IMG/VR virus record: IMGVR_UViG_3300006637_000021
Span: 1-28,701 of that record
Direction: 5' to 3' (one strand)
Source of the DNA: a virus
DNA: 28,701 nucleotides
A program made the translations under genes and the position numbers. Shown in pieces: positions 1 to 5,402 of the stretch; positions within the stretch are counted from its first letter, which is position 1; each line of letters opens with the position of its first letter. The notes beneath the pieces were generated by a model. It was given only the letters and a program-made list of their open reading frames with translations. It was not told the origin of the DNA and did not search any database.

Positions 1-11
1 GCAGCTCCCGC

Positions 12-563
12 GTGAACCAGTACGCGATAGACATTGCTGACCTCATCATCGAACTAGAAGGCGGCCTGGTAGACCACCCGTCTGACCCGGGCGGCGTCAC
101 GAAATACGGTATTAGTCAACGCGCGTACCCGCACTTGGACATTCCCAATTTGACGGTGGACGAAGCCCGCGAAATTTACGTGCGCGACTACATTACGCCC
201 GTCATGAAGGTCGTCCTGAGCGAACGAATGCAAGCCATGGTGAGTGACGCTGCCGTCAACCACGGCCTCACCAGAGCAATCGACTGGTACCAGACGTACT
301 CAACGCTTGAACTGTTCCTAGCGAAACGCATTCGCTTCTACACTAGCCTCAGCACGTTTGACACGTTCGGGAAAGGGTGGATGAATCGCGTGAACAAGGT
401 CTTGCAATGGATTGCCGACAAGCCAATGACAGCGGACGTGATGATTGACAATCGCAGCATGAGTGCACGTCTTGCCGCGGCAGGCAACGGTAAGTCACAC
501 AACGTCAAGTTCAACGTTCGTGCCCTGGCCAGGGGTGCAGGCGTCAAGCTTGATGTCGCGTAA
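12..563 (+). CDS. endolysin, glycoside hydrolase family 108 N-acetylmuramidase
   Basis: This protein of 183 residues should cleave the glycan backbone of peptidoglycan at the end of infection. The N-terminal block reads IIELEGG, then DPGGVTKYGIS at about residues 27-37, which is the GH108 signature; the Glu of ELEGG is the expected catalytic acid. The second half carries DAAVNHG and FGKGWMNRV, matching the helical core and conserved C-terminal part of the family. No signal peptide or cell-wall-binding repeat is visible, so release would depend on a holin; candidates follow directly downstream. The start is GTG at 12, and no other reasonable start precedes the catalytic motif. If the window is circular, this GTG overlaps the TGA of the gene that begins at 28384, implying translational coupling at the end of the tail operon. 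The family call is secure; substrate detail is inferred. Confidence 0.88.
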   Translation: MNQYAIDIADLIIELEGGLVDHPSDPGGVTKYGISQRAYPHLDIPNLTVDEAREIYVRDYITPVMKVVLSERMQAMVSDAAVNHGLTRAIDWYQTYSTLELFLAKRIRFYTSLSTFDTFGKGWMNRVNKVLQWIADKPMTADVMIDNRSMSARLAAAGNGKSHNVKFNVRALARGAGVKLDVA

Positions 564-3660: not shown

Positions 3661-3809
3661 CTCCTATCGTCTTGTTCCTCCTCAGACGCTTCAATCGCGA
3701 CAAGCTGCGCAAGTGCTTCACGCCGCGTGCCATGACAACCCATCACCCGCCCATCATCAATCTTCACAACGCAATACTCCCCATCCTCAACATCAATCCT
3801 GTACGGCAT
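3657..3809 (-). CDS. 50-residue acidic hypothetical protein
   Basis: A short gene overlapping the end of the methyltransferase gene by 17 bases. It has an excellent ribosome binding site, AAGGAGG, six bases before ATG 3809. The product begins MPYRIDVEDGEYCVVKIDDG and ends EASEEEQDDRS: an acidic protein with a small beta-hairpin-like start and a helix (TRREALAQLVAIEA). Its TGA falls inside the -35 box of the downstream promoter. Function unknown; the ribosome binding site and coupling make translation likely. Confidence 0.62.
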   Translation of the reverse strand: MPYRIDVEDGEYCVVKIDDGRVMGCHGTRREALAQLVAIEASEEEQDDRS

Positions 3810-4650
3810 TCCAAACCTCCTTGATTCGATGACCAATGAACTCAGCGACTTGGGGCACGACGGCGTTGCCTAGGGTTCGCAGTCTGTCCACCCGGTGGGG
3901 AATCCCATCAGCCACTCTACCCACGTTGGGTTCAGGGTCCCACCGACGGTTGCTGGCAATCCCAGGTTGCTGCTGGTTCCATTGGGATTGCGTTTGCGTA
4001 TCGTTCCAGTTTCGGTCACGTACGTTCCTTGCGTTTGCATTCTTTTTTCTAGGATTGGATCGTGAGCTGTTGGCGTTGGCCACATTCGACGTCCCACGAC
4101 CGTCTCTAGGTTCGGGTTCCTGTCCGGATGCCACACGCTTTCTGGCGTGATCCGTGCCGCCATTGCTGGGTTCGCCCTGGGGGTAGGCCACGATGAAGAG
4201 CCGGTCACGTCGGTGAGGGGCACCAACGGCGGCTGCTGGAATGCAGTCCCACTCCGCATCGTACCCGCACGCGGCCAGGTCCCCAAGAACCCTGTCGAAC
4301 CCCAGGGTAAGGTGCCCTGGGACGTTCTCCAGGAGGACGACTCTTGGTCGTACGTTGCGAATGATTCGATGGACTTCGGGCCAAAGATGCCTTTCATCAT
4401 GCTCTCCTTTTCGGCTACCAGCTACGCTGAACGGTTGACAGGGGTACCCGCCGACCAGCATGTCGAACGGCCCGAACTCCGTGCCGGTGAACGTGCGCAC
4501 GTCACGCCACCGTGGCACGTCCGGCCAATGCCGCTCCAGCACGCGCGTCGCGTAATCATCGATCTCCACCTGCCCAGCGCACGTGAAGCCTGCCCGCTCT
4601 AGGCCCAGGTCAAAGCCGCCAATGCCAGCGAACAAGCTCACGAAACGCAT
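3793..4650 (-). CDS. dcm: DNA (cytosine-5) methyltransferase
   Basis: A 285-residue protein with the ordered C5-MTase motifs: FAGIGGFDLGLE (motif I, residues 7-18, SAM binding), GGYPCQPFSVAG near 67-78 (motif IV, Pro-Cys nucleophile), LLENV near 105 (motif VI), HRRDRLFIVA near 146 (motif VIII) and RLRTLGNAVVPQVAEFIG near 253-270 (motifs IX/X). The likely role is self-modification against host restriction; the target site is unknown. The region between motifs VIII and IX (about 155-245), where the target recognition domain should be, is low in hydrophobics and rich in Asn, Gln, Arg and Ser. Another frame of the same DNA carries a second conserved protein there. The gene starts at an ATG overlapping the SSB stop (TAATG). 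Confidence 0.9.
   Translation of the reverse strand: MRFVSLFAGIGGFDLGLERAGFTCAGQVEIDDYATRVLERHWPDVPRWRDVRTFTGTEFGPFDMLVGGYPCQPFSVAGSRKGEHDERHLWPEVHRIIRNVRPRVVLLENVPGHLTLGFDRVLGDLAACGYDAEWDCIPAAAVGAPHRRDRLFIVAYPQGEPSNGGTDHARKRVASGQEPEPRDGRGTSNVANANSSRSNPRKKNANARNVRDRNWNDTQTQSQWNQQQPGIASNRRWDPEPNVGRVADGIPHRVDRLRTLGNAVVPQVAEFIGHRIKEVWNAVQD
3870..4397 (-). CDS. overprinted WPTP-repeat phage protein inside the methyltransferase gene
   Basis: A second long frame lies wholly within the methyltransferase gene on the same strand. Two adjacent ATG codons (4400 and 4397) follow AAAAGGAGAGC; the second is six bases from AAGGAG, so I use it (175 residues). The product contains FATYDQESSSWRTSQG, a TWPRAGTMRSGTA block, two repeats of WPTPxA (SSSWPTPRA, RMWPTPTAHD) and a C-terminal LNPTWVEWLMGFPTGW. 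I recognise these as hallmarks of a phage protein family usually found as a separate gene near cytosine methyltransferases; its biochemical role is unknown to me. Retention of all motifs plus a proper ribosome binding site argues against a chance frame. The overlap with motif-bearing methyltransferase codons means both proteins are constrained at once. Confidence 0.66.
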   Translation of the reverse strand: MKGIFGPKSIESFATYDQESSSWRTSQGTLPWGSTGFLGTWPRAGTMRSGTAFQQPPLVPLTDVTGSSSWPTPRANPAMAARITPESVWHPDRNPNLETVVGRRMWPTPTAHDPILEKRMQTQGTYVTETGTIRKRNPNGTSSNLGLPATVGGTLNPTWVEWLMGFPTGWTDCEP

Positions 4651-5402
4651 TAAAACGGAAGATCCTCTTCCGGCGGAAACTCATCATCCACTTCCACCCG
4701 CGAACGGCCAGCAGGACGCGCAGAACGCACGTCATTTGGCAAGTTCATTCCCTCACGCGTACCCACGTGCAACGACGTAGCAATCACGTTCGGATCGTAC
4801 TTCGTGTTGCCCTCCTTATCAGTCCACCGGTTGATCAACGGCACGCCATTCACGACAACGTACGTGCCTTTCGACACGCCAGCCATCACGTCATACGCGT
4901 CACCATCATCAAACGCGGTGGCCTGCAAGAACGTGGTCCTCTGCTCACCCTTCACGTACTCATTGATTGCAACGTAAAGGTTGGCAACGCGACCGCGGCT
5001 TGTTTCAGCAAGACGCACGTCTTTCGTGACGTTGCCACTAATCCAGCATTGCGCACTGTCGATCGACAATCGCGATTCAAGGATCTTGTTGTCACGCGCG
5101 TCACCAGTCCACGTGTCCGTTGGGAGGGCCTTGACGGCCCTGACGGTGTTGCCAACCATGTTCGTGAAGCGGTTACCGTTCATGCTGACGCGCTGCTGGT
5201 AATTGCCTAGAACGGCAAGGATCGTGTTGACTTGCGTTTCCGCAAAGATTTCGGCGGACGTGCCGTACAGGTTGACGCGGTGGTACCACTTGCGTTCCGG
5301 CATGGCGCCTGCAATGACTAGCGTTGCGATTGCTAGTCCGCTGGGCGTGTACTTCAGTTCAGGCTTTTCAATGAGGTTGCCGCGAAGAAAGAACTGGTTC
5401 AT
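4650..5402 (-). CDS. ssb: single-stranded DNA-binding protein with two OB folds
   Basis: A 250-residue protein that should coat single-stranded DNA in replication and recombination. The first OB fold begins MNQFFLRGNLIEKPELKYT and includes ATLVIAG and WYHRVNLYG. A second begins near residue 116 with CWISGNVTKDVRLAETSRG and includes LYVAINEYV and INRWTDKEGNTKYD. The chain ends in an acidic tail, DDEFPPEEDLPF, the usual partner-docking tip. Two OB folds per chain at this length is the arrangement of Deinococcus and Thermus SSB, whereas most bacterial SSBs have one. The ATG overlaps the Gam-like stop (ATGA) behind GAGGAGCAATC, so SSB is made in step with the recombination proteins. Confidence 0.85.
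   Translation of the reverse strand: MNQFFLRGNLIEKPELKYTPSGLAIATLVIAGAMPERKWYHRVNLYGTSAEIFAETQVNTILAVLGNYQQRVSMNGNRFTNMVGNTVRAVKALPTDTWTGDARDNKILESRLSIDSAQCWISGNVTKDVRLAETSRGRVANLYVAINEYVKGEQRTTFLQATAFDDGDAYDVMAGVSKGTYVVVNGVPLINRWTDKEGNTKYDPNVIATSLHVGTREGMNLPNDVRSARPAGRSRVEVDDEFPPEEDLPF

Follow-up and report, generated by a model that had tools for sequence, protein, structure and literature searches.

The window, by which we mean the whole 28,701-nucleotide stretch analysed here, is a 28.7-kb viral record (IMG/VR IMGVR_UViG_3300006637_000021) that terminase, major head protein and tape measure genes indicate to be from a tailed phage; an endolysin gene lies at its left end (window 12-563; phrog_315, E 3e-33). 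The minus strand carries a gene, here called alpha, for the large subunit of a C5-cytosine DNA methyltransferase (Pfam DNA_methylase PF00145, E 7e-53; NCBIfam dcm, E 5e-42; phrog_363, E 1e-88). The SSB gene is directly upstream, Mu-Gam-like and RecT-like genes follow farther upstream, and no endonuclease was recognised among the scanned neighbours of alpha. Motifs I, IV (PCQ), VI (ENV), VIII and X of PF00145 occur in order along the alpha polypeptide (Table 1). Motif IX (R.LT.RE.ARL.GFP) is absent from it; at the position where ordinary enzymes have R.LT.RE.ARLQGFP, alpha reads VGRVADGIPHRV.

We confirmed that a second open reading frame of 175-176 codons, here called beta, lies on the same strand wholly within the alpha ORF (4400-3870 in 4650-3793), offset by +1, as the original prediction had stated from the sequence of the window. 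The AAGGAG that it had noted before two adjacent ATGs is present, and the second ATG, 6 nt away compared with 3 nt for the first, is the better spaced. The two frames also map onto each other motif by motif in the way proposed, WPTPTA on VANANS and WVEWLMGFPTGW on VGRVADGIPHRV, and the same holds for WPTPRA and VAYPQG. Residues 2-118 of beta match positions 61-173 of the phrog_1008 profile (E 8e-26), which joins nested and split forms of beta, and no family in Pfam or NCBIfam was matched.

Table 1 Features of the alpha/beta locus; positions are those of the window, and motif positions are given on the DNA sequence
Feature	Position	Strand	Remark
SSB gene	4650..5402	-	upstream of alpha; stop shares one base with the alpha start (TAATG)
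alpha, C5-cytosine DNA methyltransferase large subunit	3793..4650	-	285 aa; motifs I-VIII and X, without IX
alpha motif I	4615..4632	-	FAGIGG
alpha motif IV	4429..4449	-	catalytic PCQ (GYPCQPF)
alpha motif VI	4315..4329	-	ENVPG
alpha motif VIII	4195..4212	-	RRDRLF
alpha variable spacer	3877..4155	-	aa 166-258; replaces classical target-recognition domain (TRD) and motif IX
alpha motif X	3853..3873	-	LGNAVVP; starts where beta ends
AAGGAG, putative ribosome-binding site of beta	4404..4409	-	3 nt from ATG 4400, 6 nt from ATG 4397
beta, nested WPTP protein	3870..4400	-	176 aa (175 from ATG at 4397); +1 frame of alpha
beta WPTPRA repeat	4173..4190	-	alpha reads VAYPQG, end of motif VIII region
beta WPTPTA repeat	4065..4082	-	alpha reads VANANS
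beta WVEWLMGFPTGW block	3888..3923	-	probable motif IX; alpha reads VGRVADGIPHRV

Taken alone, this gene gives a marginal result, with an open run of 183 codons compared with a mean of 122 in synonymous shuffles (p=0.045); it is the evidence from the family that makes dual coding decisive. A +1 beta homologue was found in 80/80 viral loci chosen by alpha alone, and beta is nested in +1 at all of the best 80 of at least 593 IMG/VR loci found with beta. In a non-redundant set of 134 pairs below 80% identity, 129 of the pairs are stop-free across beta. We trained profile HMMs on one half of the set and tested them on the other, with alpha codons permuted synonymously as controls; the beta frame scored a median of 209 bits in the real sequences and 62 in the methyltransferase-preserving shuffles, and each of the 129 real beta frames outscored all 20 of its own shuffles. 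Fourfold-degenerate sites were compared for pairs at 30-60% protein identity, alpha third positions being beta second positions. Identity at these sites is near random outside the overlap (0.30-0.38), rises to 52-58% at alpha residues 98-165 and to 74% at residues 166-258, reaches 0.94 over the WVEWLMG block (alpha aa 241-255) and drops again afterwards. The synonymous-site constraint that the original prediction had named as a check is therefore confined to the overlap. Beta-synonymous shuffles put stops into alpha aa 166-254 in 81% of cases, and alpha-synonymous shuffles put stops into beta in 54%.

These tests bear directly on the simplest alternative, that only the methyltransferase is real, with a +1 frame that GC-rich DNA has left open by chance and that is alike among relatives through methyltransferase similarity. 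The marginal run length in the single gene would fit such chance openness, and about 62 bits of +1 similarity do carry over from the methyltransferase amino acids. We nevertheless reject it and give it a negligible probability: every one of the 129 frames lies above all shuffles that preserve the methyltransferase, the fourfold constraint is limited to the overlap, frame +2 shows no open-frame excess, and 26 ordinary C5-methyltransferase loci from gammaproteobacterial genomes have neither a long +1 frame beyond shuffles nor a beta match. Dual coding, as predicted, is thus strongly supported: beta is a genuine second gene, and both frames are protein-coding and under selection.

The arrangement extends well beyond viruses. 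Among the best 80 of 247 prokaryote-genome matches to beta, 77 are nested in or overlap the methyltransferase in +1, in 76 of these 77 motif X belongs to the large ORF, and the few deviating matches are cut or frameshifted. By record titles, these best 80 matches come from Pseudomonadota, Actinomycetota, Bacillota, Bacteroidota, Chlorobiota, Chloroflexota, Gemmatimonadota, Armatimonadota, Elusimicrobia and others. Beta is carried by 15/369 genomes sampled from one gammaproteobacterial class and by 21/300 sampled from the Bacilli class (4-7%), and many of the loci in prokaryote genomes may be prophages. The WPTP protein had been described as normally a separate gene, which does not agree with these counts: no stand-alone WPTP gene was found among the best 80 of the 247 genome matches or in the examined phage records, and the 'separate' phage genes in those records lie in frames that still overlap the methyltransferase. 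Two loci differ in their surroundings or extent. In Microcystis phage Mel-JY01 (L085, 1-2081) an S-adenosylmethionine synthase gene lies directly upstream of the nested pair, and on plasmid p2 of Leptospira interrogans (L170, 1218-2033) the nested beta is 262 aa long and begins at an ATG 4 nt after the annotated start of alpha, so that the overlap spans nearly the whole alpha gene.

The overlap leaves a recognisable imprint on the alpha protein. WPTP, encoded by TGG CCN ACN CCN, forces [MVL]-A-[YHND]-[SPTA] in alpha, where its commonest counterparts are VADA, VAYP, VAHA and VADT, and we therefore read VADA, VANA and LADA as WPTP shadows. Over alpha aa 166-238 identity is 0.17-0.19 for alpha and 0.23-0.29 for beta, while both frames stay open. 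The suggestion that VADAxG stretches are a shadow of the second protein is accordingly borne out by the codon constraint of WPTP and the weaker conservation of alpha in the spacer, and aa 166-258 of alpha appear to be largely a codon shadow of beta. In the same way WVEWLMGFP of beta yields VGRVADGIP in alpha; the resulting alpha signature [MVL]G[RG]VA[DHNY]G, counted in a loose form of the pattern, occurs in 101/129 homologues and is the codon shadow of beta motif IX. Over motifs V-VIII the direction would be reversed. All C5 methyltransferases share these motifs, so that the ancestral frame there must, on this comparison, be alpha, and the N-terminal domain of beta (YDPxxSSWRTSQ...TWPRSGMMRNG) would have been overprinted later onto the pre-existing alpha gene.

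Two routes to the beta product were considered, internal initiation and +1 programmed frameshifting from alpha, the latter giving a fusion of the alpha N-terminus with beta. Ahead of the conserved core every homologue has a start codon in the beta frame, where 16% would be expected to lack one, and a well-scored start with a Shine-Dalgarno (SD) sequence is present in 78% (28% expected), an excess that may partly reflect open stretches longer than those in the shuffles. An ATG with SD falls at alpha residues 44-51 in 36/129 homologues (9.9 expected; maximum of 18 in 200 shuffles), and frame +2 has no such cluster there. A second start position, at alpha residues 84-85 with AAGGAG, is used by the window, L005 and L007. 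Few homologues share the start position of the window, and a conserved internal start at this position was rejected as a candidate, with 55% of homologues having any start there compared with 51% expected.

This lack of positional conservation would suit frameshifting, as would the fused actinophage forms, in which the N-terminal half of beta lies in +1 and the C-terminal half in frame 0 and a change of frame may occur. Against frameshifting stand the strong enrichment of starts with SD in the beta frame, the lack of an upstream block of synonymous conservation such as a shift site should leave (alpha aa 61-90 are at background), and the product itself, a fusion without motifs VI and VIII. We regard frameshifting as improbable and favour internal initiation, with a start site that would have moved among homologues.

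What beta contributes is best approached through rearranged relatives. Gp65 of Mycobacterium phage DLane is a single 464-aa chain with motifs I-VIII, LPTP repeats, RLAAAFPEWMMGWPAGWVT and then motif X. In Upyo, Backyardigan and Camerico, alpha ends after motif VIII, and a second ORF (gp53, gp73 and gp39, respectively) holds LPTP repeats, the EWMMG block and motif X. All four carry the N-terminal domain of beta, at least partly, in +1 over motifs V-VIII. The fused enzymes of the DLane gp65 family thus resemble the window pair in their LPTP repeats, EWMMGWPxGW block and +1 N-terminal module, and differ in being one long polypeptide, whose C-terminal half is read in the enzyme's own frame. The DLane-family locus L175 (1841-2236 and 2241-2892) and many of L176-L190 and L282-L314 have the N-terminal half of beta in +1 and the LPTP/motif IX half in frame 0.

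Further arrangements were observed among actinophages. In Mycobacterium phage Jinglebell (L172, 1095-1977) the frames are swapped, one ORF running from the beta start into the later motifs of alpha and motif X; the swap looks like a single indel, and minus-strand hypothetical proteins are annotated there. Llama, Ochi17 and their relatives give the same two-piece match. Gp38 of Streptomyces phage Darolandstone (L169, 555-2249) has LPTP repeats in +1, an EWMMGLP/motif X end in frame 0 and many VADA shadows between.

The C-terminus of beta aligns with that of the fused actinophage enzymes (hhalign, E 6e-9), which in turn aligns with ordinary motif IX-X (hhalign, E 5e-5; R.LT.RE.ARLQGFPD against RLaa.F.EWMMGWPaGW). 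Aligned directly with ordinary motif IX, the beta C-terminus gives a weak match (probability 9%, E 0.0035), and a Pfam search with it recognised no motif IX family. An AlphaFold model of L200, a compact fused enzyme, has good confidence except in the repeats (pTM 0.71; pLDDT <50 in the LPTP region) and matches M.HhaI end to end over 1..363 (Z 21.0, rmsd 2.7 over 218). Beta alone gives a poor predicted fold (pLDDT 61, pTM 0.27), too poor for a fold search, and a search of solved structures with beta or the fused actinophage C-terminus returned nothing relevant. Based on the module order in actinophages, the hhalign bridge and the M.HhaI-like fused model, beta most likely supplies motif IX, and alpha and beta would be subunits of one enzyme. 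The C-terminus of beta (LNPTWVEWLMGFPTGWT) is then most likely the conserved motif IX that is absent from alpha. The original prediction had placed the WVEWLMGFP block before motif IX/X; we correct this, since the block most likely is motif IX itself, and motif X follows in alpha. The distribution of the motifs between alpha and beta can be read from the alignments, the assignment of motif IX less securely.

Alternatively, beta could be an independent protein with a function of its own, such as anti-restriction or regulation of the methyltransferase, that is merely overprinted on alpha. Its N-terminal domain, a new sequence over motifs V-VIII without known relative, would be in keeping with such a role. 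In actinophages, however, the module extends through to motif X and, correctly ordered, forms part of a fused enzyme; alpha is without motif IX, and beta accompanies alpha on every contig long enough to tell, except three weak genome hits. We therefore consider a separate job for beta a remote prospect, and it is very probable that the pair forms one heterodimeric C5 methyltransferase, alpha with motifs I-VIII and X and beta with motif IX.

M.EcoHK31I reportedly has a 176-aa beta polypeptide encoded in an alternative frame inside the gene of a 309-aa alpha polypeptide, both of them needed in vitro, and a small subunit in the other frame inside the large-subunit gene is likewise what we find for alpha and beta of the window. 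In its published description (PMC3404938, citing Lee, Kam and Shaw 1995), M.EcoHK31I recognises YGGCCR and is built from two polypeptides; motifs I-VIII and X are in the larger one, and motif IX is the only motif in the smaller. By that account the window pair distributes its motifs over two polypeptides in the same way: alpha has I-VIII and X without IX, and beta would carry motif IX by way of the fused actinophage bridge. The two systems differ in that M.EcoHK31I is part of a restriction-modification system in bacteria whose specificity is known, whereas the window pair is without a recognised adjacent endonuclease. They differ also in the TRD, which PMC3404938 assigns to the large subunit, whereas the corresponding spacer of the window alpha resembles a codon shadow. 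When we searched E. coli genomes for EcoHK31I-like genes, only the prophage relatives L337 and L338 came up; in the latter (PCP07014 prophage, 1867-2628) the methyltransferase is annotated as a pseudogene with an internal stop, and the beta matches persist.

M.AquI (CYCGRG), again as given in PMC3404938, is a naturally two-subunit C5 methyltransferase split after motif VIII, and the actinophage alpha/beta pairs (most of L315-L336, plus L083, L168 and L174) are like it. The window pair is not: the small subunit of M.AquI has half of the variable region and motifs IX-X, whereas the window pair keeps motif X in alpha and has beta entirely inside the alpha gene. An AquI-like layout also occurs outside actinophages, in Bacilli-class genomes (L363, L364, L368-L370), where alpha ends after motif VIII and beta runs past it.

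Two phage cases were also compared. Gp56 of Paenibacillus phage Shelly is the same nested protein, annotated as 'g55 internal gene'; it is named 'DNA methyltransferase', and neither function nor overlap is discussed in the examined passages of the P. larvae phage paper (PMC6070908). The ShiLan-domain HNH is likewise an out-of-frame protein hidden within a phage methylase gene (PMC11855218), but it is a homing-endonuclease insertion of patchy distribution, related to the window beta neither as a subunit nor in sequence. A literature search for nested or overlapping methyltransferase genes in phages, covering few subscription papers, found no description. The view that this pair lacked any published description has nonetheless to be given up, given the motif distribution of M.EcoHK31I in PMC3404938 and the 'g55 internal gene' annotation of Shelly gp56. 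The kind is thus already known from the EcoHK31I-like motif distribution; what is new is how widely the pair occurs, the dual constraint as measured here, the almost complete absence of annotation and the explanation of the VADA and VGRVADG motifs as codon shadows.

Taken together, we propose the following course. Alpha, translated in frame 0, would provide the SAM-binding and catalytic motifs I-VIII plus motif X, and beta would be produced in frame +1 from its own internal ATG behind AAGGAG, with an N-terminal domain over alpha motifs V-VIII, WPTP repeats at the position of target recognition and motif IX at the C-terminus. The two proteins would then associate and complete the methyltransferase fold as in M.EcoHK31I, beta being required, and the phage would methylate its DNA at a particular sequence, presumably as protection against restriction by the host.

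More tentatively, and with somewhat less than even confidence, we suggest that the WPTP-repeat region of beta, and not the shadow spacer of alpha, is the exchangeable target-recognition module in a widespread heterodimeric class (some ten or more phyla) whose second subunit is dual-coded in the first. The TRD assigned to the EcoHK31I large subunit in PMC3404938 argues against a role of beta in specificity. If the proposal holds, specificity would evolve in one frame under the condition that the other remains open.

Several consequences follow for this clade. Since Pfam and NCBIfam have no beta model, beta has likely been missed in most of its annotated members, and the signature [MVL]G[RG]VA[DHNY]G flags a hidden beta gene from the alpha protein sequence alone. 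Expression of alpha by itself may give a falsely inactive enzyme. As a long same-strand overlap found across phyla, with both frames under measurable selection, the pair is a good test bed for the origin and persistence of overlapping genes.
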